Shown here: positions 47,489 to 64,000 of the stretch, piece by piece
Layout of the letters: every line of letters begins with the position of its first letter
Numbering within the stretch: the first letter of the stretch is position 1
Assembly (NCBI RefSeq): GCF_012726345.1
Contig: NZ_PTXN01000009.1
Location: forward strand, 1 to 64,000
Origin: Marinomonas sp. UCMA 3892
GTDB taxonomy: Bacteria; Pseudomonadota; Gammaproteobacteria; Pseudomonadales; Marinomonadaceae
Reading direction: 5' to 3'
Length of the DNA: 64,000 nucleotides
Notes under the pieces: model-generated
Told to the model about the DNA's origin: nothing
What the model saw: only the letters and a program-made list of their open reading frames with translations
Databases searched by the model: none
Program-made: the position numbers and the translations under genes

Positions 47489-47497
47489 GATGTAATC

Positions 47498-48973
47498 ATG
47501 TTTGATAATTTAGTAATGGGGTTTCATGCGTTTGCTGATCCATATGTGTTTCTAGGGCTTTTAGTCGGCGCATTTTTAGGATATCTAATTGGTGCTATTC
47601 CAGGCTTAGGACCAACTTTAGGTGTCTCACTTCTTATTCCGTTCACCTACAGCGTAGACCCTCTTGTCGCTGTGGTTACACTAGTATCACTTTACGCAGC
47701 AGCCGAATACGGTGGCGCGATCTCTGCCATATTAATCAACTCGCCAGGAACAGCAGCGGCGGTTGCAACCTCTTGGGACGGTTATCCTCTTACGCAAAAA
47801 GGCAAAGCTGGGGTTGCGCTTAACATCTCCATTATCTCGTCTGGTATCGGTATTTTTATTAGTACCATTTTGCTTTTCTTTACTGCGGTACCATTGTCTG
47901 AATTTGCCTTAAACTTTGGTCCCGAGGCTTACTTCTCTCTTGCATTAATGGGGCTTAGTTTAGTCTCTATTTTTGCTTCAGGTTCGCTGATAAAAGGCGG
48001 TATTGCAATGATGATAGGCTTAGGCTTAGCAACCATTGGCCTGGATGCACAAACTGGGGTGCCACGCTTTGCCTTTAATCCTGAGTTCTTTGAAGGTTTA
48101 CCCTTAGTACCTGCTTTACTAGGTCTATTCGCTTTGTCTGAAGTCTTGTTTATGATTGAACAATCGCGTCAGGAACCGCACAAAAGCAGTACCATGAGTG
48201 GTATTTTTGTTGTGCCATTTAACGTCTACTACAAGTTGAAATACACATTATTACGTAGCTCACTTATTGGTTATATTATCGGCATCATTCCTGGAGCGGG
48301 TGCTTCTATTGCTTCATTCTTATCATATGGTGTTGCAAAGCGCGTATCAAAAACACCTGACGAATTTGGCAAAGGCAGTTTAGAAGGTATTTCAGCGTCC
48401 GAATCAGCAAACAATGCTGCTGTTTCTGGTGCGCTTGCCCCACTACTCGCTTTAGGTATTCCCGGCTCACCAACCACAGCAATTATTATTGGCGCCTTGA
48501 TGATTCATGGCATTCAACCGGGACCATTGTTGTTCACAATGAACCCTGAAGTGCCATTCACTATCTTTGCTTCACTCTGGATTAGTGTGCCAATCATGGT
48601 GCTAATCGGCCTTCTCGGGGCTAAATATTGGGCAAAAGTAGCGGATGTGCCTCGTTCTATTTTAGCGGCTATCGTGACTTGTATTTGTTTAATGGGCGCT
48701 TATTCTTCCGAAAACTCCATGTTTCCTGTCTATATTACGATTGCGTTTGGCTTGCTTGGTTATATTTTCCGCAAAGCAGATATTCCACTAGCGCCTATCG
48801 TATTGGCATTGGTATTGGGCGAAATGCTAGAAACGAACTTCCGTCGTGCTGTGGTTATCTCAGGCGGGGACTATTGGGTCTTCTTCCAAAAACCACTGTC
48901 ACTAATCTTACTTTCTGTGGCTATTATTTCTTTCCTAATACCTTTTGTTAAATGGATTAGAAGCAAAATTTAA
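47498..48973 (+). CDS. tctA: Tripartite tricarboxylate transporter large permease TctA
   Basis: A 491-residue permease with about 11-12 hydrophobic helices. The signature segments GAIPGLGPTLGVSLLIPFTY and its internal repeat GIIPGAGASIASFLSYG show the two-fold repeat of the family, and GIPGSPTTAIIIGALMIHG is present. It imports a carboxylate by cation symport with a TctC binding protein. Followed by a hairpin before tctC. Confidence 0.93.
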   Translation: MFDNLVMGFHAFADPYVFLGLLVGAFLGYLIGAIPGLGPTLGVSLLIPFTYSVDPLVAVVTLVSLYAAAEYGGAISAILINSPGTAAAVATSWDGYPLTQKGKAGVALNISIISSGIGIFISTILLFFTAVPLSEFALNFGPEAYFSLALMGLSLVSIFASGSLIKGGIAMMIGLGLATIGLDAQTGVPRFAFNPEFFEGLPLVPALLGLFALSEVLFMIEQSRQEPHKSSTMSGIFVVPFNVYYKLKYTLLRSSLIGYIIGIIPGAGASIASFLSYGVAKRVSKTPDEFGKGSLEGISASESANNAAVSGALAPLLALGIPGSPTTAIIIGALMIHGIQPGPLLFTMNPEVPFTIFASLWISVPIMVLIGLLGAKYWAKVADVPRSILAAIVTCICLMGAYSSENSMFPVYITIAFGLLGYIFRKADIPLAPIVLALVLGEMLETNFRRAVVISGGDYWVFFQKPLSLILLSVAIISFLIPFVKWIRSKI

Positions 48974-48982
48974 TCGTTGCCT

Positions 48983-49016
48983 AGTTAGGCCATCCGATAC
49001 AAATTGGGTGGCCTAA
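48983..49016 (+). terminator. Intercistronic hairpin between tctA and tctC
   Basis: 9 bp perfect stem GTTAGGCCA/TGGCCTAAC with short inner pairing and no T-tract. It may set different mRNA levels for permease and binding protein. The remaining gap to tctC (49017-49221) shows no gene. Confidence 0.55.
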
Positions 49017-49221
49017 CTCATCTAATAAGAAATACAAAAAACCACCCATCCTTAGCCAACATTAATTTAAGCTCTGTTTCTTTAAAAACAGCTCCTCTAA
49101 CCTTTGGTAACCCAAGCCATTACTTATGGTCAGTAGCTCCATCTCTTACCTTCTGCGACTCTTTCTATGGGGAACATATCCTTCTCTTCCAACAAAAATA
49201 AACAATAAGGGAGATCATCGA

Positions 49222-50220
49222 ATGATGATTCATAAACTTTTTAAGAATACAGGCAAATTTCTAAGCATTGCGACTATTGCGCTCTCTGCTACCGTTGCGA
49301 CAAGCTCAGCTTACGCAGAAAGTGATTGGCCCACGGGACCTGTAAAAATGATCATGCATACTAAAGCTGGCGGTTCTGCTGATGTATTTATTCGCACTCT
49401 GGCGAAAAGCCTAGAACCACAAATTGGGCAAGAAATTATTGTCATCAACTCCCCGGGCGGCGGTGGTGCCAGCCAAATGGGACGAATTCGTCCAGCAGAT
49501 CCAGATGGCCTGACTCTGGGCATCAACACTCTTACTCACTTCACTGGCATGTTAACCAATCTAAAAGGCACGTTTGCTCTGGATGACTTTTCATGGATCG
49601 CTTCCACTCAGGAAGACGCTATCATCTTCTTTGTTAAAGAAGATTCTGACATCAAGAACATTGATGATTTAATTGCTAAAGCACGCAGCAATAATGGCAG
49701 CATCAGCATAGGTGGTTTTGGTCCAATCGGGTCCATGCAAAATATTGGCATGTCTATGTTGGCAAAATCAGCAGGTGTCGATCTTAAATGGGTCGGTTTC
49801 AATGCCACACCAGATATTATCTCTGCCTTATTGGGGGGACATGTAGATGTCGGTATTTCCAACTTGGGCGCCCTAAAATCATTTTTTGATGCCGACCGGA
49901 TCAAAGGCTTAGGCGTGCTTGGTGAAAAACGTTTATCCAGCTTACCTGACGTAGCGACCATTACCGAACAAGGGTATGACGTTGATAATAGTTGGTTACA
50001 GGTTCGAGGTGTCTTTGGCCCCGCTAACATTCCGATGGAAACACAGCAAAAAATCGCCGATGCCTTCCATAAAGCCATGCAATCAGATTACTACCAACAA
50101 TATGCCCGTGCAGCTGGTGTAGAAGATTCATTAATGGGGCCTGAAGCGTACACCACCTTTGTGAAAAAAATCTCCAAAATTGCAAAAGTTCAGCTAGAGG
50201 AAGCTGGCGTCTTGAAATAA
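49222..50220 (+). CDS. tctC: TTT-family substrate-binding protein TctC
   Basis: A 332-residue periplasmic binding protein with a signal peptide (KNTGKFLSIATIALSATVAT, ending AYA before ESDWPTGPV). The ligand-loop segments NSPGGGGASQ and NATPDIISALLGGHVDVG match the paralogue at 37752-38738. The frame extends to 49126, but the ATG at 49222 has GGGAG 8 bp upstream and starts the signal peptide. Its place after tctBA makes it the cognate binding protein. Its substrate is probably an organic acid that the CaiB-type transferase then activates. Confidence 0.92.
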   Translation: MMIHKLFKNTGKFLSIATIALSATVATSSAYAESDWPTGPVKMIMHTKAGGSADVFIRTLAKSLEPQIGQEIIVINSPGGGGASQMGRIRPADPDGLTLGINTLTHFTGMLTNLKGTFALDDFSWIASTQEDAIIFFVKEDSDIKNIDDLIAKARSNNGSISIGGFGPIGSMQNIGMSMLAKSAGVDLKWVGFNATPDIISALLGGHVDVGISNLGALKSFFDADRIKGLGVLGEKRLSSLPDVATITEQGYDVDNSWLQVRGVFGPANIPMETQQKIADAFHKAMQSDYYQQYARAAGVEDSLMGPEAYTTFVKKISKIAKVQLEEAGVLK

Positions 50221-50227
50221 GTGCCAT

Positions 50228-50255
50228 AGGGTAGCTGCCACATACTAGCTACCCT
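50228..50255 (+). terminator. Hairpin between tctC and the CoA transferase gene
   Basis: 9 bp perfect stem AGGGTAGCT/AGCTACCCT with a 10-base loop, followed by TAAAC. Weak terminator or stabiliser. Confidence 0.5.
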
Positions 50256-50344
50256 TAAACATCTGCAAAAACACAGACAAGGATGTCTTGAAGCAATAAC
50301 AATATTAGGCTTATCTACCCATTTCTTAAGAGGTCAATATCCCC

Positions 50345-51538
50345 ATGCCAAAAGCATTTGATAAAATCCGCGTAATAGACACCACACATGTTCTTGCTGG
50401 TCCGTTTGCCAGCTATCAGCTTGCTGTTCTTGGTGCTGAAGTCATCAAGGTAGAATCGCCTGATGATCCAGACCAAGCTCGTCTACAAGGCTCAGACAGA
50501 GCATTAAACGACATCGGTATGGGGACGGCGTTTATGTCACAGGCGTCCAACAAAAAAACACTTGCTCTGGATCTAAAAACCGAAGCAGGAAAAGAAGCCA
50601 TGAAACGCCTTATTAGCACAGCAGATGTGTTTGTTGAAAACTATCGCCCAGGTGCTTTTGACGCCCTTGGTTTAGGCTATGAAGAGATGTCTAAACTGAA
50701 TCCCAAGCTTATTTACTGTTCTATCTCAGCGTTTGGATCCACAGGGCCACGCCGTGAGCTAACCGCTTATGACAATGTGATTCAAAGTTTTTCTGGCATG
50801 ATGGCCATGACAGGCCATGGTGATGGTAGACCACTCAAAAGCGGTGCTCCTGTGGTAGATTATGCCACTGGCACAACCGCTGCGTTTGCTATTTCAACTG
50901 CTCTTTTTCAAAGAGAAAGAGAGGGTGGCAAAGGCCAATTTATTGATGTATCCATGCTTGATGTGGCGATGATCCTGTATAGTTCACATCTAACAAGCTA
51001 CATGTGGAACGGCAAACACCCAGAACAAAAAGGCAATGTTTTTCCTTTTGCCACCATTGGCTGTTATGAAGCTGCAGACGCTCCGCTGATGATTGCAGCA
51101 TCTAACTTGGCTCAACAAAAAGCCTTATGGACCGCACTTGAACGTGAAGACATGATCAAAACCAACAATAACCAGCGCTTAGACGGCCATGCCGAAGAAG
51201 CCGCCGTGTTAGCCAGTATTATGAAAAATCAAACGGCTGATTATTGGGAGTCGTTTCTAAATGAAAAGCGCGTCCCTGCTTCCCGAATTCGTCGTATGGA
51301 AGAAGCCCTAGCCGATCCACAAGTTGCCGCTCGTAATGCGATACAAACACTTAATGACCCTGACAGCCAAGTAAATGGCTTAAAGGTGCCAGTATCTGCA
51401 TTTAATTTATCCAGCAGTCCTGCAGAAGTGGACAAGGCCCCTCAGCCAGTTGGAGCGCAAAGCGCAGAACTACTCAAAGAGCTTGGCTACTCCGAACAAG
51501 ACATCGCCAAGATGCGAGAACAAGGCGCCACAAACTAG
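50345..51538 (+). CDS. CaiB/BaiF family III CoA transferase
   Basis: A 397-residue class III CoA transferase. Landmarks are LAGPFASYQLAVLGAEVIKVE at the N terminus, the PGAFDALGLGYE segment and the catalytic Asp in GQFIDVSMLDVAM. It moves CoA between carboxylic acids, for example from succinyl-CoA. Co-directional with tctBAC, so it probably activates the acid imported by that transporter. A good terminator follows. Confidence 0.92.
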   Translation: MPKAFDKIRVIDTTHVLAGPFASYQLAVLGAEVIKVESPDDPDQARLQGSDRALNDIGMGTAFMSQASNKKTLALDLKTEAGKEAMKRLISTADVFVENYRPGAFDALGLGYEEMSKLNPKLIYCSISAFGSTGPRRELTAYDNVIQSFSGMMAMTGHGDGRPLKSGAPVVDYATGTTAAFAISTALFQREREGGKGQFIDVSMLDVAMILYSSHLTSYMWNGKHPEQKGNVFPFATIGCYEAADAPLMIAASNLAQQKALWTALEREDMIKTNNNQRLDGHAEEAAVLASIMKNQTADYWESFLNEKRVPASRIRRMEEALADPQVAARNAIQTLNDPDSQVNGLKVPVSAFNLSSSPAEVDKAPQPVGAQSAELLKELGYSEQDIAKMREQGATN

Positions 51539-51716: not shown

Positions 51717-52235
51717 ATGATCTACACAGTAGAATGCTCATTCAATGATCCAGCTAAAGAAGCAGAATGGAATAAGTTTTATAGTAACGACAAACTGCCC
51801 GCTCTTATTTCTGTCAACGGTTTCTTCACCTCTCAACGCTTCATTGCATTAACCAACGACTGCCCGCGTTATCTCGCCATACACAGCATAGACGAAGCAG
51901 ACGTACTAACCAGCCAGCATTACAAAAACGCTGGCGGCGGTAACTTTGCTAAATGGCAAGAACACATCACAGATTGGCACCGCAATATTTACGATATGCC
52001 CAAACGAGCTCAGGCAGTGAATAACGATGAATACTTACTTTGTAGCGAGGAATCACCACAAGCTTTAATAGACCTTGGGCTAGATCCCATTAGGTTAAAC
52101 GCCATCGCATTAGATAAACATCCTGCGCAGCGTTGGCTGGCGGTTTCAAACCAGCTCCCAATAGATGAAATCAAAGCTAGCTCAGCAAAAATTCATATCT
52201 ACCAAGCCATGGGAAAACAACTTCAAAGTTTTTAA
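51717..52235 (+). CDS. Hypothetical protein, dimeric alpha/beta-barrel-like
   Basis: A 172-residue protein of uncertain family. It begins YTVECSFNDPAKEAEWNKFY and continues with LPALISVNGFFTSQRF and RYLAIHSID, the strand-helix pattern of EthD/ABM-like dimeric alpha-beta barrels. Such proteins are small degradative or ligand-binding enzymes. It converges with the chemoreceptor gene across only 6 bp, with no terminator between them. Confidence 0.6.
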   Translation: MIYTVECSFNDPAKEAEWNKFYSNDKLPALISVNGFFTSQRFIALTNDCPRYLAIHSIDEADVLTSQHYKNAGGGNFAKWQEHITDWHRNIYDMPKRAQAVNNDEYLLCSEESPQALIDLGLDPIRLNAIALDKHPAQRWLAVSNQLPIDEIKASSAKIHIYQAMGKQLQSF

Positions 52236-52241
52236 TAGCTT

Positions 52242-53489
52242 TTAAGAGCGCTGCAATAACTGATTAATAAAAAAAGTAGATTTTTCCATTAACATCTTAG
52301 CTTGGCCATTTAATGATTCTACCGATTGGCTCATCTGTAACGCTTCGTTGTTGACGCTTTGGGCTTGATGATAAATTTCACTCGATGACTGTTGAGCATA
52401 CTCTGCTTGATGAACCAAGGCGTTCAGCCTTTCCCGAATATCATGGGTTGACGTTCGTTGAAGCTGAACACTGTCGGCTACTTCTTGGGAGATATTATTA
52501 ATCTGATTAATAATCACTGACGTGCTTTCTAATCCTTTGATGGTTTGTTCTATCGTGGTTCGAACCAATTCAATTTGATCGGAAATACTGTCGGTGGCTT
52601 GGGAGGTTTGCGAAGCAAGGTTTTTCACTTCCGACGCAACCACCGCAAAGCCTCGCCCTGCTTCACCAGCTCGGGCGGCTTCAATCGCCGCGTTCAAAGC
52701 CAATAAATTGGTTTGATCCGCGATGGATTTTATTAAGCCAATCACTTCACCAATATTCACCGCCGCAGACGACATTTTTTGAATCAAGGCATCCGAACGT
52801 TCTGCTTCTTCGACACCCGTTAAAGAAGCGTCTGTAGCTTGAGAGATTTTATCAGAGATCACTTGCGAGCCTTCCCAAAGCTCACTAACTGAGGCCGAAA
52901 GCGTTTGCATGTTTTGTGCCGAGGCGTCTGTTATTTCCGAGGTTCGTTGTGCTTCTTTTAGTGTCGTTTGAATCGCTGTCACCAAATGCCCAGATGACGT
53001 ATTGAGGCTTGCTGCCGAATCATTAATGTCATTGGCGACACTTTCTACATCGTCTTTAAATTGGTTAGTGAAACCTTCTAACAGCTCTTTATTTTCCAAA
53101 ATCGAAATCGTATAAGGCGTTTTACCAACCATGCTCAAGGTCACAATGGCGGATGTGGTAAAAGTACTGCCATCGGCTTTTTTATAGGTTAAACCACCAC
53201 GCCAATATCGATACTTTTTCAGCTGAACTTTGCCTTCTTCCATCATCTCATCACGAGTTCTTCCGCCTGGCTGAATCTCGTTTAAAATCGTATTAAGGTG
53301 TTTACCTTTTAACTGAGCCGCCGATTTATAGCCTAGCGCCTTCAACATAGCGCTATTCAAAAAGGCTAAGCCTTTGTTTCGACCTGAACCTAAGCAATTA
53401 ATAAAAGCGGGAGACGATAAGTTTTCGATCACTTGATGACCAAGAGTTTGCTGACCAATGAATTGACTAAATAAAGTCGTTAATTTCAT
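52242..53489 (-). CDS. Soluble PAS-domain methyl-accepting chemotaxis protein
   Basis: A 415-residue cytoplasmic chemoreceptor. An N-terminal PAS domain (about residues 20-125, with [20 protein letters not shown]) precedes a signalling coiled coil whose tip, [20 protein letters not shown]-like, is the hallmark of MCPs. No transmembrane helix is present, so it senses an internal signal such as redox state or a metabolite. The frame starts at 53498, overlapping the mutase stop, but AAGGA is better spaced for the ATG at 53489. As the last gene of the Nit1C-type operon it could couple motility to nitrogen or nitrile metabolism. Confidence 0.88.
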
Positions 53490-53491
53490 CT

Positions 53492-55561
53492 CTAACATCC
53501 TTTCATAATTCGCTGATTTTCAAACTGATTAACCTTTATCTTTGCTGCTACGACAAGAATGTCATACAGACTCATAGCAATATCGTTTAGGCTATGCTTC
53601 GCCGTAAAAACAGCTTCAACGCCGATCTTCTCTAATGTATTTTTATCTGAGGTAGGAATCACGCCACCTATGAAAATGGGGCAATCAGTACGGATTTTTT
53701 GAGTAAATTGTGTAACAAAAGGAATATGCGCACCTGATAAAATCGATAAGCCAATGCCATCGTATTGATACATCCCATCTTGCTGAATGATGTCGTCAAT
53801 GCTCGCAAAAATGGGTAAGTAATCCACTTCGATACCAAGGTCACGAAGTAAAGAGACAATCACTTTCGCGCCTCGGTCATGGCCGTCCAAGCCTACCTTA
53901 GTGACTAAAAAGCGCAGCGGTCGACCTAACTGACTCGATAAGGCTTGATAGCGCTTAACCATATCCGCCTCAAGATGGGCATTAAATGGCGCCGATTCTA
54001 TGTGTTCCGGTTTCAGGTAACGCGAGGCTTCATCAGTCAGCGCCTTGATGCATTCCCCAACAGTGGCTCTGACTCGGATCGCATCAATGGTAAAAGGCAT
54101 GAGGTTTTGCTTACTTCTCGCTGCGGCTTGCAACGCCTGCAAAGCACGTTTAACGGCACCATCATCACGCTTTAATTTTAACTGGGCGAGCTTTTTCGAT
54201 TGTTGCAACAGCGTTTTGTCCGAGGCAATTACACGCTGATGTTGAGGACTCGATGACGGACTTTGATAGCAATTTTTGCCCACGATTTTTTTGTTTAGCG
54301 CCTCTTCGTCCATGGCGGTTTGTAACGCTTGCCGATGAATAAAAGTCGTTAATTGGCCCGATGCCACCAGCGCTAACACACCGCCTTCTGTCTCTATGTT
54401 ACTTTGCATGGTTCGCACATACTCGATCATGCTTTGGGTCGCGCTTTCCATCATATAAGAACCGCCCCAAGGGTCGACTACATCGCCAATGCCTGTTTCA
54501 TGTTGCAGAATGAATTGTGTTTCTAGCGCCACTTTGCTGGCTTGATCCGAGGGCAAAGAGATCGCTTCATCATAAGAGTTGGTATGCAGGGATTGCGTAC
54601 CGCCGAAAACGCCAGCCATGGCTTCGATAGTTGTACGCACAATGTTATTGAGAGGTGAGCTTTCGGTGAGTGACACACCCGAGGTTTGGCAATGCATTTT
54701 CAGCCGTTTTGCGCTCTCGGAACGAATACCAAATTCGTCTAATAATTCACTCCATAAAAAACGCGCGGCTCTTAGCTTTGCCACCTCTTTATAAAAACTC
54801 ATGCCAAGTCCAAAGAAAAAGCTCAAGCGTTTAGCAACGAATTCCAGGTCGATACCTTGCTGCTGAAAGTGAGTTAAATACGCTCGTGCATTAGCCATAG
54901 TCAGGGCGAGCTCAAGCTCAGGGGATGCTCCCGCTTCTTGGAAGTGATAACCCGAAATCGACATGCTATTAAAGCGTGGCATGTGTGCGGAACAATAGGC
55001 CACCACGTCGGACACCACACCCATGGAAAAATCCGGTGAGTGAATATAGGTATTGCGGGCGATGTACTCTTTGAGAATATCGTTTTGAATGGTACCGCTA
55101 AGCTTATCAGGCGCTACGCCCTGCTCTTCAGCAGCGACTATAAAACACGCCATAATAGGCAACACTGCGCCATTCATCGTCATGGACACACTGACATTGC
55201 TAAGATCAATGCCATCAAACAACACCGCCATGTCTTCAACAGAGTCAATGGCGACGCCCGTTCGCCCCACATCGGCGGCGGCCAGATCATGGTCTGAATC
55301 GAAGCCTAAATGCGTGGGCAAATCAAACGCCACAGATAAGCCCATTTGCCCTTGCGACAAGGCGCGCTTAAAAAACGCATTGGTTTCCAGTGCTCCTTCA
55401 AAACCGGCGTATTGACGAATCGTCCAAGACTTTTGCTGATACATTTTTTCATATGGGCCACGCACAAAAGGCGCCTTTCCATGGGCATCACGCCAAGACT
55501 CGGCCATTTCTGACACCATCGAATACACGCCTTCGATCTTGGCTAAAGAAGGCGCTTTCAT
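53492..55561 (-). CDS. Adenosylcobalamin-dependent methylmalonyl-CoA mutase-like enzyme (single chain)
   Basis: A 689-residue acyl-CoA mutase. The N-terminal TIM barrel covers about residues 40-400. The C-terminal cobalamin domain starts near 540 and has the base-off motif [12 protein letters not shown]. Residues that set specificity in Propionibacterium methylmalonyl-CoA mutase are conserved: Tyr51 (IRQYAGF), Arg169 (IARNTYI) and His206 ([11 protein letters not shown]), equal to Tyr89, Arg207 and His244. Isobutyryl-CoA mutases have Phe and Gln at the first two. The N-terminal arm is about 40 residues shorter than in classical large subunits. No small subunit or MeaB chaperone gene is nearby. 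It overlaps the LnmK-like gene by ATGA, with AGGGGG before its start. Confidence 0.88.
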
Positions 55562-56508
55562 GATTCGCCCCCTACATTTGTTGAACTTTTTAAACTAGCT
55601 TGCTTCTCTTGAAATCGGACAAGTGAATGATCCAGATAGCGTTTTCGAGTGATGACATTGGCAATAAGAGCATGATCCGATTGACGATAAAGGCGCCCGC
55701 AATGGCTCAGCAATGATGAGTCTTGATCAGCAGATAGCATGGCGTAGAGGTTGGCTTCTAATCCATCGTCTAGATTAATATTGCCATAGTAGCAAATAGT
55801 ACGTTCAACGGTTTGCCACAAGGCCATACTGTTTCGCTCAGAAATGTGATTGAGCGCTTGTAAATCTGATTGAAAAAAGCGTTCAGCGCGATCCATCACG
55901 GCTTGAAATTGCGCGAAATATAAGAAATCCGCCCCATTAAAATCCGCATAAGGACAAGGCTGATAAACAAAAGGCACCGCGCTGACAGACAAGGCCGCAT
56001 CAGGCAAGGTTCGCCCTGCTTTGTGCTGCGCCATCATTTGGCTTGCTGCCTCATTGGCCGACCAATCGCCCTTTGCCATTTCACCACGTGCAACACTTTG
56101 GTTATTACCAAGCTCGGATCGATTGACAAAGCTAGATAATAACTCTACCCGAGCAACACAATCCCGATGACTATCGGGACCCTCTAGATAAAGATCATGA
56201 CGGCTATAAGAGCGAGATGCAGAGACCCGCGTCAGCTGCGTCTCAATCCATAATCGACTGTTTTCAGTCACTTGATGCAATGCCGCGTTACTAATTTTTA
56301 CCACCAGAAACGCGGCATACATATGTCGACCTTGTTGGTCGACAAAGTTTGGAGCAGGTAAATCAAGGCGTTTTGCTAACGCAAGCCAATGTTGATGACC
56401 GCATTCCTTGAGTAGCCAGTTTTCACTCAAACCGCCCAAGGCTAACTGTGGCATTCCAATAAAATAGTCTTGCGAGACAGAAACGAAATCCATTGATTTT
56501 TCTGCCAT
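55558..56508 (-). CDS. LnmK/Pnap_2097-like double-hotdog protein
   Basis: A 316-residue protein resembling the LnmK/Pnap_2097-type biosynthetic family. LnmK in leinamycin synthesis is a double-hotdog enzyme that takes methylmalonyl-CoA, decarboxylates it and loads propionyl onto a carrier protein. Recognisable parts are GMPQLALGGLSENWLLKECG, MYAAFLVVKI and a C-terminal half with YADFNGADFLYFAQFQAVMD. The assignment is by pattern memory and is moderate. The frame is open to 56553, overlapping nitH, but the ATG at 56508 is 1 bp after the nitH stop with GAGG upstream. Adjacency to a methylmalonyl-CoA mutase strongly fits a methylmalonyl-CoA substrate. Confidence 0.7.
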   Translation of the reverse strand: MAEKSMDFVSVSQDYFIGMPQLALGGLSENWLLKECGHQHWLALAKRLDLPAPNFVDQQGRHMYAAFLVVKISNAALHQVTENSRLWIETQLTRVSASRSYSRHDLYLEGPDSHRDCVARVELLSSFVNRSELGNNQSVARGEMAKGDWSANEAASQMMAQHKAGRTLPDAALSVSAVPFVYQPCPYADFNGADFLYFAQFQAVMDRAERFFQSDLQALNHISERNSMALWQTVERTICYYGNINLDDGLEANLYAMLSADQDSSLLSHCGRLYRQSDHALIANVITRKRYLDHSLVRFQEKQASLKSSTNVGGES

Positions 56509-56509
56509 A

Positions 56510-57796
56510 TTAAGACGCCTCAGACAAAGATTCTGTCGATTCTTTTTCGTCAACGACTTGGCGAATCACCTTGCTTAGATACGCCGCATCGGCAGCCACG
56601 CCAGAAAATCGTCCTGACCCCCACGTAAATAACCAAGGCAAACCAATAAAATACACGCCTTTTTCGTTCGTCACACCACGTCGATGAACCGGTGCGCCCA
56701 TGCCATTAAAAACGGGTAAATCAAGCCAAGAAAAGTCAGGCGTAAAACCAATACACCAAATGATGCTGGTAATGCCAGACGCGGCTAAATCCAAGTTTTC
56801 ACGTTCTTCTTTTGGCTCCCACACTGGCTGATAAGGCGGTTCAACGGGAGCATCAATGCCGTTTTTTTCGATATAAGCATCGATGCGCGTATTGATGTTT
56901 TTGTAGGTATCGTCAGCGGCGTCTAAATTCGCGGCTAAGTTGGGTTTGAAGATCAATTGGCCATCTTGGTAATTTTCTATCAAACCAAACAGCTCCATGC
57001 CTTCCAAGGCAAATTTACGCAGATCAATTTCTCGACCGCCGTCGCGCCCTGTCACATAGTGGTTGGTGTTATCACGAACCCCTTCACGCAATGGGTGCTC
57101 ATCCACTGAAATGTTGTAGTAGCCCATATCATCAAGCCACTCCACCACATCTTTTCCACGATATTGGCGTGCCACACGCGGAGCGTTACCCGTTGCAAGA
57201 AACACTTTTTTACCATCAATATGCAGGTCTTCGGCAATTTGCGCACCAGATTGACCCGATCCAACCACCAGCACTGCACCATCTGGCAACTGTTGAGAGT
57301 TTTTATATTGATTGGAATGAATCTGCAGAACGCTTTCTGGAATGCGCTCTGCCATGCGAGGAATGATTGGCTTCAAATAACCACCAGAGGCAATCACCAC
57401 CTGGTCGCCCGTAAACTCGCCTTTTGTGGTAACCACACGGAATTGCCCATTCTCCAGTTTGCTGATTTTTTCAACGCTCACGCCTTCTAAAATTGGCGGT
57501 TTAACTTTGGCCGCGAAACGATCCAGATAACCAATGATCTCTTCTCGCTTCATAAAGCCTTTTGGATCATCGCCATCGTAAGGATGGTTTGGCAGTTCAC
57601 ATTGCCAGTTAGGCGTCACCAAGGTGAAAGAATCCCAGCGTTGGGTTTTCCAGCTGTGCATCATGGTGTTTTTTTCAAAAATAAGATGGTCAATGTCTTG
57701 CTCTTGCAAGCAAGCACTCATGGACAAACCGGCTTGACCACCGCCGACAATTAATACGGAATAATGAGTTGGTTGGCTGTTTTGTGCAGTTGGCAT
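56510..57796 (-). CDS. nitH: Nit1C flavin-dependent oxidoreductase (MSMEG_0569 family)
   Basis: A 428-residue FAD/NADPH monooxygenase-like protein. FAD motif VLIVGGGQAGLSMSACL (about residues 14-30), NADPH motif VLVVGSGQSGAQIAEDL (about 168-184) and the late IIWCIGFTPDFSWLDLP strand are those of flavin-containing monooxygenases. It is the NitH component of the Nit1C cluster. In cyanide-assimilating Pseudomonas the cluster is needed for growth on cyanide; the individual role of this enzyme is unknown. 12 bp downstream of nitG; GAGGAAAC before the ATG. Confidence 0.85.
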   Translation of the reverse strand: MPTAQNSQPTHYSVLIVGGGQAGLSMSACLQEQDIDHLIFEKNTMMHSWKTQRWDSFTLVTPNWQCELPNHPYDGDDPKGFMKREEIIGYLDRFAAKVKPPILEGVSVEKISKLENGQFRVVTTKGEFTGDQVVIASGGYLKPIIPRMAERIPESVLQIHSNQYKNSQQLPDGAVLVVGSGQSGAQIAEDLHIDGKKVFLATGNAPRVARQYRGKDVVEWLDDMGYYNISVDEHPLREGVRDNTNHYVTGRDGGREIDLRKFALEGMELFGLIENYQDGQLIFKPNLAANLDAADDTYKNINTRIDAYIEKNGIDAPVEPPYQPVWEPKEERENLDLAASGITSIIWCIGFTPDFSWLDLPVFNGMGAPVHRRGVTNEKGVYFIGLPWLFTWGSGRFSGVAADAAYLSKVIRQVVDEKESTESLSEAS

Positions 57797-57807
57797 AATG
57801 GTTTCCT

Positions 57808-58095
57808 CTAATCGATAAATCGTGTGACTTTCACAGATGCATTAGGTGTTGTTTCATAGCTGGCGCAGCGTGTCTTGATGACACCCAGCTGATCCATGGC
57901 GCTGGAACAGGCATAGCCGAAACGCTCACGAACACGATTGCTCGCCGCGTTAAGTGCCGTTTCACTGGTCGCCAAAAATTCGTTTAAGGGATACTCTTTT
58001 CCCGCACTAAAGTGCTCTTTAATGACACTGGATGGGGAATAACAGGCTTCGGTTTTACCATCAGGCCAAACCACTTCAAATTGCACTACAGGCAT
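57808..58095 (-). CDS. nitG: Nit1C small protein (MSMEG_0570 family)
   Basis: A 95-residue protein beginning MPVVQFEVVWPDGKTEACYS, with LNEFLATSETALNAASNRV and a C-terminal strand. This is the small MSMEG_0570-type nitrogen-starvation protein found only in Nit1C clusters. Function unknown. Its start overlaps the end of nitF by 10 bp, and GAGAGGA precedes it. Confidence 0.82.
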   Translation of the reverse strand: MPVVQFEVVWPDGKTEACYSPSSVIKEHFSAGKEYPLNEFLATSETALNAASNRVRERFGYACSSAMDQLGVIKTRCASYETTPNASVKVTRFID

Positions 58096-59078
58096 AACAT
58101 CCTCTCTTCTTCGCGCGAGTCTTGCTTATCTTGTCGAAAGCCCAAAAAGGCCGCTTGTTCAAAGTCCCAAAAGGTGACGTTTTGACCTTCGTCTATCACC
58201 TCAATGGAAGGTCGTTCTGTCACATGCCCCATCGCGGCGGCATGAATGTCTCGGCTTTGAAAAAGCGCCACCACGTCATCCACCTTGTCGACGGGACAAG
58301 TCATCACAAAACCAAAACTTGGGAAAGCGCACAGCCAATCTGACCAACTCACTTGATCGGGTTTTGGGATCTGCTGCAAAAACACATCCGCACCTTTTTG
58401 TGAGCAATCCATAAACATGCCTAAGGTGCCCAACAGCCCTGCTTGGCTGATGTCTTTACAGCCTGTCAGCCAGCCTTTTTCAGCCAATAACGGCAGCAAC
58501 TCTAGGTCGCCTCGCAACCGTTCAGCGGGGGCGTTCGTCGTGGCATTCCAATTAAGATACGGCGGACGAAACGCGCCTCGCTGATCCATGGCAACCACAA
58601 TGGCGTCGCCAGTATTGGCATCGAAACTGGTTAACACTTCATTGGCATGACCCAAAATTGAAACAGCTAACTGTGTGGTCTTGCTGTTATGGCTGGTATG
58701 ACCACCGACAACAGGCACGCCATAAGTCGAAGAAGCCGCTTTCATACCGGCAAAAATTTGCGCACTGACGTCGTCCTGTGCACTCCACAAAGCATTTACC
58801 ACGGCTTTTGCTCGACCGCCCATGGCGGCAATATCACTGAGGTTGACCATGACGCCACACCAACCTGCAAACCAAGGATCCTGTGCGACAAAATCGGGCA
58901 GAAAACCTTCTATCGCAAACAAGTCATAGCCGTTGGCGTTTTTCAGCACCGCGGTATCATCGCCATTTGAAAAACCCGACTGATTACGTTTTTCAAATGA
59001 AGATATAACCGGCGCTAACGCCACTTTTGATGCCACTCCGGGGTAATGGCGAACGGTCTCAATGAGTTGTTGAAGCAT
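58086..59078 (-). CDS. nitF: Nit1C AIR synthase-related protein (sll0787 family)
   Basis: A 330-residue PurM/AIR-synthase-like ATP-binding protein. The SNGDDTAVLKNANGYDLFAI strand and VVALDQRGAF-type segments correspond to the N-terminal dimer barrel of the PurM/SelD/HypE family, which phosphorylate amide or acyl oxygens. It is the sll0787-type component of Nit1C. The frame reaches 59099, but GGGAGG lies 6 bp before the ATG at 59078. It overlaps nitE by 20 bp. Confidence 0.83.
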   Translation of the reverse strand: MLQQLIETVRHYPGVASKVALAPVISSFEKRNQSGFSNGDDTAVLKNANGYDLFAIEGFLPDFVAQDPWFAGWCGVMVNLSDIAAMGGRAKAVVNALWSAQDDVSAQIFAGMKAASSTYGVPVVGGHTSHNSKTTQLAVSILGHANEVLTSFDANTGDAIVVAMDQRGAFRPPYLNWNATTNAPAERLRGDLELLPLLAEKGWLTGCKDISQAGLLGTLGMFMDCSQKGADVFLQQIPKPDQVSWSDWLCAFPSFGFVMTCPVDKVDDVVALFQSRDIHAAAMGHVTERPSIEVIDEGQNVTFWDFEQAAFLGFRQDKQDSREEERMLCL

Positions 59079-59691
59079 AGGACACCTCCCCAACACCATG
59101 CGCGAAATCGGATTTGATCAGATTGGGTTCCAAACCCAACAAATATGGGCTGATTTCTGTGTCTTTCACCGGACGACCAGAAACCCAAAAGCCTAAAGAT
59201 GGCTGGCTCAATGGTGGATAATGCTCAAGATCGGCCTGCATTTTGGCGTGCTTCATGCCATGAATATCTTGATACCCTGTCGTTGCCCAATGCAGCCGCT
59301 TAAACAGCACTTCGTTCTGCTCTTGCACCGTGGCTAAAAAGGTATGACAACCTAAGGTATTGGCGCTGGACACGGCGAGGCGAATCAAACTCGCGCCCAA
59401 TACGCCTTGGCGACGAAAGGCCTTTTTCACCGCCAAACGAGAGCCCCACCATAAACCAGGCTCAGGTTGGTGAATTCGCACTGTGCCGACCACTTCTTCT
59501 GGCATCCCTAAGATGGACGTGGTGACAATTAATGACTGCGCGATCAGATCAATGTCGTCTCTATCATGTTCTTGGAACAAGCCTTGCTCTTCGCAGAACA
59601 CTTCACGGCGAATGCGATTGGCTTGCTCAATTTCCCATGCATTCGTCGCCCATTTCACTTGGAATACACGACCTTGTTTAGACAGTGACAT
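59059..59691 (-). CDS. nitE: Nit1C N-acetyltransferase (MSMEG_0567/sll0786 family)
   Basis: A 210-residue GNAT-type protein. Landmarks are RIRREVFCEEQGLF, VGTVRIHQPEPGLWWGSRLA and the acetyl-CoA loop VKKAFRRQGVLGASLIRLAV. It is the acetyltransferase component of Nit1C. Substrate unknown. The frame reaches 59736, but AAGGA lies 8 bp before the ATG at 59691. It overlaps nitD by 14 bp and nitF by 20 bp, so translation is coupled. Confidence 0.83.
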   Translation of the reverse strand: MSLSKQGRVFQVKWATNAWEIEQANRIRREVFCEEQGLFQEHDRDDIDLIAQSLIVTTSILGMPEEVVGTVRIHQPEPGLWWGSRLAVKKAFRRQGVLGASLIRLAVSSANTLGCHTFLATVQEQNEVLFKRLHWATTGYQDIHGMKHAKMQADLEHYPPLSQPSLGFWVSGRPVKDTEISPYLLGLEPNLIKSDFAHGVGEVSYASTTH

Positions 59692-60847
59692 CGGCAGCTT
59701 CCTTTTCAAATCGAGACAGAGACGAGCAAGCACCACAGCGTGCGCAACCAGCTTTCACTTTGTCGGAAGTCATATGGAGATTCACCAATTCTTGCGCCAA
59801 AGGACGCAATACCGCCTCCATAAAAGACGCCGTTGGCGCAGGACGATCTTCTAACGGGGTACCAGAAATCGGCACAAAAGGCACCACGAAGGGATAAACG
59901 CCCATGGCAACCAGCTTGCGACAGGTGTCGATAATGATTTCTTCTGTGTCACCAAGGCCTACCAGAATATATGTGCTCACTTGGCCTCGCCCAAACACCG
60001 CTACGGCGTCTTCAAAGGCTTGAAAATACTCATCCAAAGACACTTCCGATTTGCCCGGTGTAATAGTTTTGCGTAATTCGGACGTAATCACTTCTAAATG
60101 CATGCCTAAGGAATCAATACCCGCGTCTTTCATGCGTTGATACCAAATAGGATCTTTCGGTGGCTCGCACTGACCTTGAATGGGCACATCAACTACAGCT
60201 TTGATGCCTTTGGCACTTTCACACATGACTTTCGCCCCGCGATCAGCACCAGCGGGAGTGCCTGTGGTCATGACAATATGCTTGATGCCGTCCAATTCCA
60301 CCGCGGCTTTTGCCACTTCAGCTAATTGTTCCGGTGTTTTGTGAGCAATGGTGCGCCCTGCTCGCAACGATTGGCCAATGGAACAAAACTGACACGCTTT
60401 ACGACGGCTTTCATAACGAATGCAGGTTTGTAATACCGTGGTAGCAAGCACATCGGTACTGTGCAAGGTGGCGATGTGTGAATAGGGAATGCCATCTGCG
60501 GTGGTTAATTTGTAAAATTCAGGGTCTTTGGCAAAAGTCACATCCGCCAGTGGAATGCTGTTCGATAACAATTGAGAGACTGGCTTATTTTGTGCCGTAT
60601 CGTCTGTATTATGAATACCTTCATCTGACATCTCTTCATTCGAAAGCGTAAACGGCGATGCCCATGCGGTTTGGGTATAAATCGGCACCATTAACGTAGT
60701 GCCATCCACTGTGATCGCTTGATGATCGGATGGACCCGCGCCACCACGGCGGCTAACGTGCTCCTGATCCAACGAGGTCAGACGCAAGCCTTTGGTTTGT
60801 AACTCAGTTAGGAATTGAGATGCTTTCATTTTGAGTTGTGTCGTCAT
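59678..60847 (-). CDS. nitD: Nit1C radical SAM protein (MSMEG_0568 family)
   Basis: A 389-residue radical SAM enzyme. The cluster cysteines are in [18 protein letters not shown], spaced C-x9-C-x2-C, unusual compared with the common CX3CX2C and typical of this family as I remember it. The C terminus ends with a second cysteine group, [12 protein letters not shown], possibly an extra cluster. It is the radical SAM component of Nit1C; its reaction is unknown. The frame extends to 60946, but GGAGGAG lies 6 bp before the ATG at 60847. It overlaps nitC by 44 bp. Confidence 0.86.
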
Positions 60848-61844
60848 GTGACTCTCCTCCATTGAATGATTCAGGAAACACTGAGGTACGAAAAGTGTCT
60901 GGTTCAGACTCGGGTAAGCCTGCAACGTATTGGGATACTTGAGCATTCATTTGTAAGCTCAACAGTTCAGGACGTGCGTAATGTCCAACGGAATCCATCA
61001 TACGTTTGCGCTTATCGATCAAACGGAAATCCAAATCCGCGTAGATAAAACCTTCGCCTTCAGTCATAGGTGGAACAAGGTGTTTACCCTCTGGCGAAAT
61101 GATCGCGGTATTGCAGCCATCTCTTAGGGCTTTTTGCATGGCTGGATCGGGCGTGATGCTTTGAATTTGAGCCTCGGTGAGCCAGCCTGTGGAATTAATC
61201 ACAAAGCAACCCGACTCTAAAGCATGATGACGGATGGTGACGTCCATTTGCTCGCCAAAAATAGGACCCACTAACGACCCCGGAAATTGCGCGCAATGAA
61301 TTTGCTCGTGTTGTGCCATTAAGGAATAACGAGCCAATGGGTTGTAATGCTCCCAACAAGCTAAGGCACCAATTCGTCCAACCGCAGAATCAACCACTTT
61401 TAAGCCAGAGGCATCACCTTGACCCCAAATCATGCGTTCGTGATAAGTTGGGGTGATTTTGCGACGCTTCAAAATCAGCTCGCCGGTTTTATCGAACACC
61501 AATTGGGTGTTGTATAAGCTGCCGTTGTCACGCTCATTCACACCAACCACGACCACCATTTGACGCTCTTTGGCTTTGTGGCCAATAGCTTCTGTCGTGG
61601 CACTCGGCACAACAACCGCTTCTTGGTACAAACGAAGATGCTCAGGGCCTTGACTAACAGGTGGCAGCACAAACGAAAAATAAGGGTAATAAGGCATGAA
61701 GGTTTCAGGAAAAACGATGAGCTCTACACCGCTCTCAGCCGCTTCATCAATCATATTCAGTACTTTGCGCAGCGTACCGGCCAAACTCTCCAAATCCGGA
61801 GCAATCTGGACGGCCGCGGCGCGAACGATTGGGTAATCACTCAT
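60804..61844 (-). CDS. nitC: Nit1C nitrilase (sll0784 family)
   Basis: A 346-residue nitrilase with an intact triad: Glu47 ([11 protein letters not shown]), Lys129 ([13 protein letters not shown]) and Cys163 ([13 protein letters not shown]). The CWEHYNPL motif is that of true nitrilases, hydrolysing a nitrile to acid and ammonia. In Pseudomonas fluorescens NCIMB 11764 the orthologous NitC has been reported to be essential for growth on cyanide as nitrogen source. AGGAG lies 8 bp before the ATG; 14 bp after nitB. Confidence 0.93.
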
Positions 61845-61858
61845 CGCCGCGGCTCCTA

Positions 61859-62341
61859 TTACATTGTCCAGGTATCAATAATCAACGCATTATCACGACG
61901 ATGTAGAAGTTTAAGATCCAATACATCCAATGGATTAATCGGTCTGATTCCTTCGATCAAAGAACGTTCGCCATGGCCATAAAGCGCTTGTAGGGCAAAA
62001 CGACACGCGTAAACTTTCCCGCCTTCTGCCATGAATTTTTTCAACTGATTGTTGAAGTTCATGTGGCCTGGAAATGCTTCATCACCCAAAGTAGGAAAAC
62101 CACGTTGTACCCCCAAATTCACCCCAGGGCCGTAAAGTAGAATACTGGTTTCGTAGCCTTTACGAAGAAGACGAGTGGCTTGCAGCATGTTCACAAAGCC
62201 AATGGAACCTTCAAAGGCAACCGTGTGAAAAGTCACTAAGGCTTTTTCTCCGGCTTCTGCTTTTACGTCTTCAAAGACTTTTTCTTCGTAATCAACTAGG
62301 AAATCACCATCTTTGTTCAGTGTGTGTGTTACTTCTGGCAT
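61859..62341 (-). CDS. nitB: Nit1C nitrogen-starvation protein (MSMEG_0572/Sll0783 family, DsrE-like)
   Basis: A 160-residue DsrE/DrsE-like protein: [40 protein letters not shown], and [17 protein letters not shown], with one Cys in the usual DsrE strand position. This is the Sll0783/MSMEG_0572 nitrogen-starvation response family, always first or near first in Nit1C. Function unknown. It is the first gene of the operon; GGAG lies 7 bp before the ATG and a sigma-54 promoter is about 50 bp upstream. Confidence 0.88.
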
Positions 62342-62400
62342 GTTTTATCTCCGATCATGTTGTTGTGTAAGAAACCGATGTGTTCAATTTCAACTTAAGT

Positions 62401-62419
62401 ATTGCAACAGGAGTGCCAA
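62401..62419 (-). promoter_or_regulatory. Sigma-54 (RpoN) promoter of the Nit1C operon
   Basis: Minus strand TTGGCAC-N5-TTGCAAT matches the consensus TGGCAC-N5-TTGCA exactly in its invariant GG and GC. The -12 GC is at 62404-62405, giving a predicted start near 62392 and a leader of about 51 bases before nitB. Confidence 0.85.
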
Positions 62420-62542
62420 TGATCGTATGAAAAAAAGCAATCAATATGCGATAAAGCAAAACATGATTGAAAAAATTCACGAGAAATTTTTTAAAAAATA
62501 GATAAAACAGGTTTTAACCTAGATCTAGCCTAACTTCTGCTT

Positions 62543-62589
62543 CGCACTATAAAGTTTCATTATGTTTAGACAATCACCAATTGAGTGCA
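62543..62589 (-). promoter_or_regulatory. Two NtrC-like enhancer sites upstream of the Nit1C promoter
   Basis: Compared with the NtrC consensus TGCACCA-N3-TGGTGCA, site A (62543-62559, CGCACTATAAAGTTTCA) matches 12 of 17 and site B (62573-62589, ATCACCAATTGAGTGCA) 13 of 17. Their centres are 30 bp apart, about three helical turns, and lie about 160 and 190 bp upstream of the predicted start. Spacing fits cooperative NtrC binding, as upstream of glnA. Match scores are by hand. The rest of 62342-62779 shows no gene. Confidence 0.55.
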
Positions 62590-62720
62590 AAAAAAGCCAT
62601 AAACAACAATCAATTCATAAAAAAGCGAAGCACTCGTAGAGGCACTTATAGAGGCCTTTGCAAAAAAGATGGCTTTTAAAAGAAGTCATAAAGACTTGGA
62701 AAGGAGAATTAGAAAGACCT

Positions 62721-62755
62721 GAAAAGAAAAAGAGGCAGATTAACAGAACCTGCCT
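62721..62755 (-). terminator. Terminator of the second nitrilase gene
   Basis: Minus strand: 6 bp stem AGGCAG/CTGCCT (62733-62755) with an 11-base loop, then CTTTTTCTTTTC. 24 bp beyond the nitrilase stop; it separates that gene from the Nit1C promoter. Confidence 0.6.
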
Positions 62756-62779
62756 TTAAATAAGCCATTGTTGATTAGA

Positions 62780-63703
62780 CTATTTCTGAAACACCACGCC
62801 AGACTTTGGGCGCTCATCTACCTTAAGTTCGAAAATATCGGGGCGTGAATAATGACCGGACACATCCAAGTCATAACGTGCCTTTGGAATATCCGCAAGA
62901 TCAATCGACGCGCTAAGTAAACCTTCTCTATCTTGCAATGGTCCAGCAAGCACATTGCCCATAGGATCGACAATAATACTGCCTCCACGGATCAAACGGC
63001 GTTGATTATCCCAATGAGGAATATCAATACCAAGTACTTCTGGCGAAGGCTGAATCTGACACGCGCTCACCACAAAGCAGCGGCCTTCGTGACCAATATG
63101 ACGCATGGTGCTTTGCCAAATATCTCGCTCATCCACCGTTGGCGCGCACCAAATATCCACGCCTTTGGCATACATGGCGGCACGTAATAACGGCATATGG
63201 TTTTCCCAACAGATAGCGCCGCCCAATCGCCCTGCTTGGCTTTCTACCACAGGTAAGGTCGAACCATCACCCAGCCCCCAAATAAGACGCTCCGTTCCGG
63301 TGGGCATGAGTTTACGATGTTTCGCTTCAAGGCCATTCTCTGGGGTAAAGTACAAAGACGTACAGTAGAGCGTGCTACCACTGCGTTCAATCACACCAAT
63401 AACAATCGCCGCTTTGGTTCTTACTGATAACTCAGCCAAAGCATCGGTTTCCTCGCCCGGCACGGTCACGGCGCTATCGAAATAAGCGGCAAATGTCTCG
63501 CGGCCTTCATCGATTCGATAACCTAGGTAAGTACCAAAGGTTTCTCCTTTAGGATAACCACCCAACAAGGCTTCCGGCATCACCACCAGCTTGGATTGAG
63601 AGGCAATGATTTGCTCTTCAAAAGATAAAATATGTTCTAAAGTGCGAGCTTTGCCCTCAGGGTGAGAGCCAATTTGTAATGCACAGACGATAAACGCTGA
63701 CAT
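62780..63703 (-). CDS. Nitrilase (aliphatic/aryl type), stand-alone
   Basis: A 307-residue nitrilase with an intact triad: Glu44 ([14 protein letters not shown]), Lys131 ([16 protein letters not shown]) and Cys165 ([17 protein letters not shown]). The [11 protein letters not shown] and CWENHMPL segments are those of classical microbial and plant nitrilases, so it is a different branch from nitC. Own transcription unit: a terminator follows it, and GAGG lies 9 bp before its ATG. Divergent from a LysR gene that probably controls it. It could feed ammonia from external nitriles. Confidence 0.92.
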
Positions 63704-63814
63704 AAATACTACCTCGTTAACGATGTTTTCTTGATGAAAGTATTGGTCACAAAACCTCTATTCAGAGTAAAGTCTTTTGATAAACTCCAACATCCCAATC
63801 CATGACTAAGCATT

Positions 63815-64000
63815 ATGAATGACATCAATATTTCATCGACTGACATGAACTTGTTAAAAGTATTTGAAGCCCTTTACATAGAAGGCAGCGCCAGTCGGGC
63901 AGCGCAGACTCTTGGCCTCACTCAATCAACGGTGAGTGCCTCTTTGCGTCGACTGAGAACACTTTATAACGATCGTTTGTTTGTAAGAGAAGGCAAGGGA
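63815..64000 (+). CDS. LysR-type regulator, N-terminal part (cut by window end)
   Basis: From the ATG at 63815 the frame is open to the window edge (62 codons). It encodes the LysR start MNDINISSTDMNLLKVFEAL and the helix-turn-helix GSASRAAQTLGLTQSTVSAS, then LRRLRTLYNDRLFVREG. The rest lies outside. It is divergent from the second nitrilase gene with 111 bp between the starts, so it is its likely regulator. Confidence 0.88.
   Translation, partial: MNDINISSTDMNLLKVFEALYIEGSASRAAQTLGLTQSTVSASLRRLRTLYNDRLFVREGKG

Follow-up and report, generated by a model that had tools for sequence, protein, structure and literature searches.

A putative two-signal sigma-54 promoter with a candidate MocR operator upstream of a Marinomonas Nit1C operon

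The promoter region of the Nit1C operon that we analysed seems to be a switch reading two signals, general nitrogen hunger and a second signal that would be conveyed by a MocR-type regulator. The window, as the analysed stretch is called here, comprises 64,000 nucleotides of contig NZ_PTXN01000009.1, which belongs to a Marinomonas genome whose nitB-like protein is 100% identical to those of M. arctica and M. foliarum. Upstream of nitB lie a sigma-54 core promoter, two NtrC-like sites and a direct repeat whose presence in other genomes follows that of a MocR gene. We judge it probable (about 0.75) that NtrC drives the sigma-54 polymerase here under nitrogen limitation and that the MocR-type regulator gates this activation with a pathway signal. 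According to the first paper on Nit1C, conserved transcription factor binding sites were not identifiable upstream (PMC1199592), whereas three conserved upstream elements with a testable logic have now been found. These elements would link a cyanide/nitrile pathway to general nitrogen control. They also suggest that most of the proteobacterial Nit1C loci sampled have a regulator of their own, and they make this locus a candidate example of sigma-54 transcription in which a MocR-type protein takes part. Should that sensor respond to cyanide or a nitrile, knowing its ligand would make it easier to identify the natural substrate of Nit1C.

The Nit1C operon and its setting

Ten genes run on the minus strand from 62341 to 52242 with tight or overlapping gaps. 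Judged by its matches to protein family models, the set is an extended Nit1C operon in which nitB to nitH are followed by an LnmK/Pnap_2097-like gene, a B12 mutase gene and a chemoreceptor gene.

61859 to 62341, minus strand: nitB-like gene, MSMEG_0572/Sll0783 family (TIGR04044, 294 bits, cut-off 110)
60804 to 61844, minus strand: nitC-like nitrilase gene, Nit6803 family (TIGR04048, 560 bits, cut-off 503)
59678 to 60946, minus strand: nitD-like radical SAM protein gene (TIGR04043, above cut-off)
59059 to 59736, minus strand: nitE-like N-acetyltransferase gene (TIGR04045, above cut-off)
58086 to 59099, minus strand: nitF-like AIR synthase-like protein gene (TIGR04049, above cut-off)
57808 to 58095, minus strand: nitG-like MSMEG_0570 family protein gene (TIGR04042, above cut-off)
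56510 to 57796, minus strand: nitH-like flavin oxidoreductase gene (TIGR04046, above cut-off)
55558 to 56553, minus strand: LnmK/Pnap_2097-like protein gene (TIGR04099 and TIGR04098, above cut-off)
53492 to 55561, minus strand: B12-dependent acyl-CoA mutase gene (TIGR00641 and TIGR00640, above cut-off)
52242 to 53498, minus strand: methyl-accepting chemotaxis protein gene, the last open reading frame of the run (chemoreceptor models matched, none above its cut-off)
62733 to 62755, minus strand: terminator-like hairpin 3' of the upstream nitrilase gene, a 9-pair stem followed by CTTTTTCTTT

The spacing fits a single transcription unit of ten genes, which agrees with an earlier suggestion, made in a preliminary description of this DNA, that the B12 mutase and the chemoreceptor belong to the same operon. 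The hairpin may set the upstream nitrilase gene apart from the Nit1C promoter; it ranks first among 14 terminator-like hits in 52000-64000, a number at chance level (13.5 in shuffles), and is terminator-like only.

In 31 of 84 locus rows, nitH is followed by an LnmK-like gene, a B12 mutase gene or both (>35% identity), with both present in 21, in a count that enters two genomes twice and includes some incomplete loci. This suggests that some of the proteobacteria have the extended operon (window 53492-56553). Window 43691-51538, beyond the other end of the operon, has genes for a TctABC-type transporter, a CoA-transferase and acyl-CoA enzymes. Nit1C is patchy within Marinomonas: counting the window's own genome, nitB is present in 6 of the 48 Marinomonas genomes.

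For comparison, we used the best 80 of 525 named loci encoding a nitB homologue, a sample that leans to close relatives because it was drawn in this way, plus 41 stretches whose source genomes share the window's genus, order, class or phylum, making 121 rows. The 41 stretches represent four of the five other Marinomonas genomes and all new hits above the family cut-off; the fifth Marinomonas genome (G041), with its locus at the end of a contig, entered only some of the comparisons. Eight stretches duplicate genomes among the 80, leaving 113 distinct loci, the window's own excluded.

The sigma-54 core promoter is conserved upstream of nitB

The core has the form TTGGCAC-N5-TTGCAAT, and its first base lies 78 bp upstream of the A of the first ATG.

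62401 to 62419, minus strand: sigma-54 core promoter (-24/-12) upstream of nitB, TTGGCACTCCTGTTGCAAT

Scored against the sigma-54 consensus TGGCACG-N4-TTGCW, it reaches 11/12 and is the sole place in the 64 kb to do so, eight other places scoring 10. By itself the core is not decisive, because the exact form TGGCAC-N5-TTGC occurs at 13 places in the genome versus 6 for the reversed pattern. Only the Nit1C copy among these 13 has NtrC-like sites (at least 8/12) at enhancer distance; one other has a single 8/12 site at -41, which is too near.

Conservation was extensive. A core of at least 9/12 was present upstream of nitB in 110 of the 113 other distinct loci (a set that includes the best 80 of 525), where about 3 were expected, and one of at least 10/12 in 93. 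The search kept GG and GC intact and extended to at most 170 bp from the nitB start, and base shuffles reached 9/12 in 2.5% and 10/12 in 0.35% of cases. The sigma-54 promoter proposed for Nit1C in the preliminary description is supported. Three loci fell under 9/12, namely L085 (8), L165 (5) and the cyanobacterial L093 (none). The cyanobacterial Nit1C locus is without the sigma-54 and MocR elements and has a GTA-N8-TAC word, like an NtcA site, 91 bp upstream; it is a fitting negative because, to our knowledge, cyanobacteria lack RpoN. The window's genome encodes RpoN (TIGR02395, 498 bits, cut-off 277).

We consider it very unlikely that the main start belongs instead to a sigma-70 promoter, TTGTCT-N16-TATAGT (62573-62546, minus strand), with the sigma-54 match secondary. 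That candidate scores 9/12, faces the right direction and lies in a stretch that is similar in four Marinomonas genomes, including the window's, but sigma-70-like matches in 52000-64000 are fewer than in shuffles (9 versus 16.9) and it is the sigma-54 core that is conserved across genera.

NtrC-like sites and probable nitrogen control

Two NtrC-like sites, scored against the NtrC-site consensus GCACCA-N3-TGGTGC, lie upstream of the sigma-54 core with a start-to-start distance of 30 bp.

62574 to 62588, minus strand: NtrC-like site 1, GCACTCAATTGGTGA, 9/12, starting 170 bp before the TGG of the core
62544 to 62558, minus strand: NtrC-like site 2, GAAACTTTATAGTGC, 8/12, starting 140 bp before the TGG

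The pair had been described previously as two palindromes 30 bp apart, and both are in place, but their scores are modest and site 2 reads as really one good half-site. The sigma-70-like match (62546-62573, minus strand) overlaps site 2. By sequence alone the two sites are weak, because the window holds 20 places of at least 9/12 and 151 of at least 8/12, and the window alone could not settle the observation since the core recurs in the genome and neither NtrC-like site is strong by itself.

It is through its conservation and phasing across genomes, and through a similar pair at the genome's own glnA, that the pattern rises above chance. Site 1 is in the same place in the three nearest Marinomonas genomes compared. 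When the span from -200 to -110 relative to the TGG was scanned in dereplicated MocR-type loci, an NtrC-like site of at least 9/12 was found in 56 of 93 versus 6.9 expected from dinucleotide shuffles, and one of at least 10 in 26; the other 37 had none at 9/12. With one locus per genus the count was 33 of 54, versus 2.1 in base shuffles. When spacers from 0 to 8 were compared, only N3 stood out (33.3 versus 3.6-11.1 for the eight others). The positions of 62 sites are periodic with the turn of the helix (R 0.61 at 10.5 bp, 0.66 at 11 bp), as are those from one locus per genus (R 0.51 at 10.5 bp, Rayleigh p ~7e-5; 0.59 at 11 bp), the shuffled control (mean R 0.35) being a weak one from only ~8 sites. 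Outside the gamma and beta groups the NtrC signal fades, with a site of at least 9/12 in 1 of 11 loci (eight of other classes and three named alphaproteobacteria).

At the genome's own glnA, identified with Pfam, a sigma-54 core is accompanied by NtrC-like sites at -152 and -121, a distance of 31 bp, and a 10/12 NtrC-like site lies upstream of a kinase gene that is followed by ntrC. NtrC itself is encoded in the genome (TIGR01818, 761 bits, cut-off 559). The two P-II gene loci had no pair of sigma-54 core and NtrC-like site. The preliminary description had tied the operon to the nitrogen-limitation response through NtrC. The enrichment and phasing of the sites favour NtrC as the likely activator; the further claim, that NtrC is the sole controller, is not supported, given the MocR gene and the repeat described below.

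A direct repeat beside the -24 box follows the MocR gene

Alignment of the loci on the -24 box revealed a common direct repeat, TTGATYGC-N3-TTGATYGC. In the window it lies within the interval covered by the preliminary description (62401-62589), where it had gone unmentioned, and a gene for a MocR-type regulator was found just past the window.

62437 to 62455, minus strand: direct repeat TTTATCGC-ATA-TTGATTGC with an 11-bp period beside the -24 box, putative MocR operator
Contig 64819 to 66219, plus strand: MocR-type regulator gene, 819 bp past the window edge and 2.4 kb upstream of the promoter
Window 62780 to 63703 and contig 63815 to 64732: second nitrilase-family gene (32% identical to NitC) and LysR-type gene

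The window's copy scores 15/16, is 19 bp long, starts 37 bp before the TGG and ends 18 bp before it. Its spacing from the core is nearly constant: in 30 genus counts the distance from its start to the TGG is 37 bp, in 10 it is 36 bp, and 5 have the repeat at another position. A repeat of at least 13/16, which shuffled sequence reached once in 1660 trials, was present in 83 of 84 distinct loci (from the set that includes the best 80 of 525) in which MocR shares 46% identity or more with one of three queries, and in 3 of 19 with a MocR below that line, which was chosen after the data were seen. None of the six loci with a sigma-54 activator in place of MocR has it. In 6 of the 19 distant-MocR loci, TTGAATG pairs occur 11 or 12 bp apart, as do TTGATTG pairs, one mismatch being allowed and the units differing by one letter.

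Within genomes, exact copies of the repeat lie mostly at Nit1C. The variant TTKATYGC-N3-TTGATYGC, its K chosen to fit, has one exact match in the window's genome, the Nit1C promoter; with up to two mismatches there are 38 places versus 16 for the reversed pattern. The unmodified repeat has 13 exact copies in 12 of 32 other Nit1C genomes, 20 having none, and its reversed pattern has 0. Twelve of the 13 are at Nit1C, two of these in one genome, and the thirteenth (L219) is between two genes that by eye resemble part of a sugar-transport operon. Two exact copies precede one Nit1C operon in G129 (contig 55, 100475-100565). The repeat is degenerate in two sister Marinomonas, G041 (13/16) and G046 (12/16), the latter with a MocR gene adjacent.

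The MocR-type protein of the window's genome has a GntR helix-turn-helix and an aminotransferase-like domain (PF00392 and PF00155 above cut-off). Its nearest named model is EhuR/EnuR (NF052286; 340.7 bits, under the 480 cut-off), and none of the best 25 of 45 models reaches its own cut-off with this protein. With tblastn, MocR was found within the flanks examined in 77 of the named loci (best 80 of 525), in three of them downstream of the operon, and overall a MocR gene is near Nit1C in 103 of the 113 distinct loci (including the best 80 of 525). Of the 119 rows out of 121 with a core of at least 8, 111 carry MocR, 6 a sigma-54 activator instead and 2 neither; the latter are L092, with only 453 bp of upstream sequence, and L155, with 3.6 kb upstream and no downstream sequence covered. 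The position of the PLP lysine in 113 MocR proteins is occupied by K in 104, R in 8 and A in 1. A loss of mocR from the window's Marinomonas group had been considered and was ruled out by the gene just past the window. The absence of an adjacent activator had earlier been taken to leave NtrC alone in charge, a conclusion at odds with this gene and with a repeat that tracks MocR.

Between mocR and the promoter of the window's genome lie the second nitrilase-family gene and the LysR-type gene. The same arrangement occurs in M. foliarum and G044; the second nitrilase gene is present without the LysR gene in M. arctica, both are missing in G046, and in a Vreelandella locus (L017) both are on the far side of mocR.

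The repeat is a likely MocR operator, given how closely it follows the gene. Described MocR operators are reported to be direct repeats two or three helical turns apart (PMC5320631), from which the 11-bp period of the window repeat, one turn, differs. It is unlikely that NtrC and sigma-54 alone control the operon and that the repeat is the site of a different, architectural protein such as IHF. Such an arrangement would draw on the well supported sigma-54 and NtrC elements; IHF commonly helps sigma-54 promoters, and the repeat lies between enhancer and core, where IHF would sit. The conserved YAA of the IHF consensus YAANNNNTTGATW is, however, missing from the logo of 78 loci, in which GC is kept after TTGATY twice, 11 bp apart, and an IHF site was rejected as the identity of the repeat. 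Control by NtrC alone is also hard to reconcile with a repeat that tracks the MocR gene and is missing from all six activator loci.

Loci with NitA-like activators

Some Nit1C loci carry an adjacent sigma-54 activator, which in most of them is NitA-like. With these activators as queries, no such activator was found adjacent to the window's Nit1C or elsewhere in its genome, where the best matches among the 19 strong Sigma54_activat loci were 38-50% identical, mostly in the AAA+ domain, and the top match (L099) is above the NorR cut-off. The earlier statement that no dedicated sigma-54 activator lies adjacent is supported. A motif search for sigma-54 activators near the named loci (best 80 of 525) returned only L073, and a second pattern applied to the same loci (best 80 of 525) returned none. 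A hidden NitA beside Nit1C was dropped as an idea for most loci because the divergent upstream open reading frame, translated in five loci, encodes a MocR-type protein of ~470 residues, not a sigma-54 activator.

Five of the activators in the six rows that have one are 55-99% identical to one another and NitA-like, and that of L073 is different. These rows have the sigma-54 core but lack both other elements, with the repeat in 0 of 6 and, after dereplication, NtrC-like sites (at least 9/12) in 0 of 5. Both types of locus occur in one genus (g24): its four MocR loci have the repeat at 16/16 and NtrC-like sites at 9/12, and its two activator loci score 8-9 for the repeat and 7 for the NtrC-like site, a mixture that may reflect transfer of the whole locus, not change in place. 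Four of the NitA-like loci (L139, L152, L153 and L154) have, by eye, two or three copies of a CTACG-N6-CGTAG-like palindrome, a candidate enhancer of the NitA-like activator; their upstream regions share no word of 7 or more letters.

These loci bear on whether the palindromes of the window belong to another of the genome's own sigma-54 activators, which would then drive the operon. Only NtrC and NorR pass a named cut-off among the 10 that were scanned of the 19 strong Sigma54_activat matches, so the others are uncharacterised, and the match of the window sites to the NtrC consensus is imperfect. Nevertheless, we regard this as quite unlikely, for the N3 spacing of the palindrome agrees with NtrC, a similar pair is present at the genome's own glnA, and the NitA-like loci bear their different palindrome and none of these sites.

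Proposed mechanism

Sigma-54 polymerase requires an AAA+ activator. NtrC is the most likely source of the ATPase because of this requirement and because a Pfam scan of two MocR-type proteins found no AAA+ activator domain. In the mechanism that we favour, nitrogen limitation would lead phosphorylated NtrC to bind the two upstream sites, loop to the sigma-54 polymerase and supply the ATPase step, and the MocR-type regulator would bind the direct repeat beside the -24 box and, once bound, would make activation by NtrC depend on the pathway signal. The signal would most plausibly be cyanide or a nitrile reacting with the PLP of MocR, a guess made because of the role of Nit1C in cyanide assimilation, the cyanide-responsive MpaR and the genes beside mocR. 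The near-constant spacing and upstream place of the repeat suit a bound protein that touches the polymerase or bends the DNA, and an assisting role for MocR is slightly preferred over a blocking one because the repeat is upstream of the core, not over it.

A possible, if doubtful, variant is that MocR is a plain repressor released by the substrate, with NtrC as activator; it overlaps with the favoured mechanism, in which MocR may act with either sign. EhuR/EnuR, the nearest named model of the window's MocR, includes a repressor, EnuR (PMC8739950), and the MocR of the cio cluster of P. pseudoalcaligenes is described as negative (PMC8567248). However, the operators of EnuR overlap core promoter elements (PMC8739950), whereas the window repeat stops short of the core, its near-constant spacing is unlike occlusion, and MpaR, a cyanide-linked MocR-type protein, is needed for the expression of its target (PMC10790758).

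More broadly, and tentatively, a PLP-based MocR sensor of cyanide or a nitrile that docks in a fixed register beside sigma-54 polymerase and licenses NtrC might make Nit1C an AND gate of nitrogen hunger and substrate in many proteobacterial genera, and such a gate and a single NitA-like activator might replace each other in evolution.

Comparison with known systems

Each part of this arrangement is known in kind, and it is the combination that appears new. A promoter of the glnAp2 type has a sigma-54 core with two NtrC sites about three turns apart upstream; the window locus is like it in having such a core and two NtrC-like sites about three turns apart, and unlike it in its extra direct repeat beside the -24 box and its pathway-specific MocR-type regulator.

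Pseudomonas requires Nit1C to assimilate cyanide (PMC8567248, PMC5333837). P. pseudoalcaligenes/oleovorans CECT 5344 has the same seven genes, nitBCDEFGH, linked to cyanide assimilation, and control by sigma-54 is implied there because a sigma-54 activator is annotated (PMC11049912, PMC10138600, PMC8567248). According to the published description, with which our comparison was made, that activator is the divergent, Fis-family NitA (PMC11049912, PMC10138600, PMC8567248), whereas the window locus has a MocR-type regulator, the repeat and NtrC-like sites and no NitA-like activator was found.

Among MocR-type regulators, EnuR/EhuR of ectoine use resembles the window protein in its GntR head and aminotransferase-like PLP domain; EnuR differs in that its target promoter is predicted to be of the sigma-70 type and its repeat operators lie over the core (PMC8739950). 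MpaR of Pseudomonas aeruginosa, which is likened here to the window MocR from its description, is cyanide-responsive and required for cyanide-induced genes, with a PLP-cyanide adduct proposed as its signal; unlike the window system, its promoters are predicted to be of the -35/-10 type, with a short palindrome 61-62 bp ahead of the start sites (PMC10790758). In the open-access literature searched, no description was found of a MocR, sigma-54 and NtrC arrangement at Nit1C. Searches within PMC5979394, PMC12316311 and PMC13207237 found no nitrilase, GntR or MocR words, and one within PMC5491218 found no nitrilase word and one GntR regulator in its NtrC table.

The genes beside mocR (L127:4485-10635, contig 66484-72634) are cydB- and cydA-like, a second MocR-type gene and a NirA-like gene, a set with a cytochrome bd-type oxidase that appears to resemble cyanide-resistance clusters. 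The set is reminiscent of the cio cluster of CECT 5344, which includes MocR, a sulfite reductase hemoprotein and a terminal oxidase (PMC10138600). Homologs of cydAB occur within the examined flanks in 5 of the 121 locus rows, from 4 genomes.
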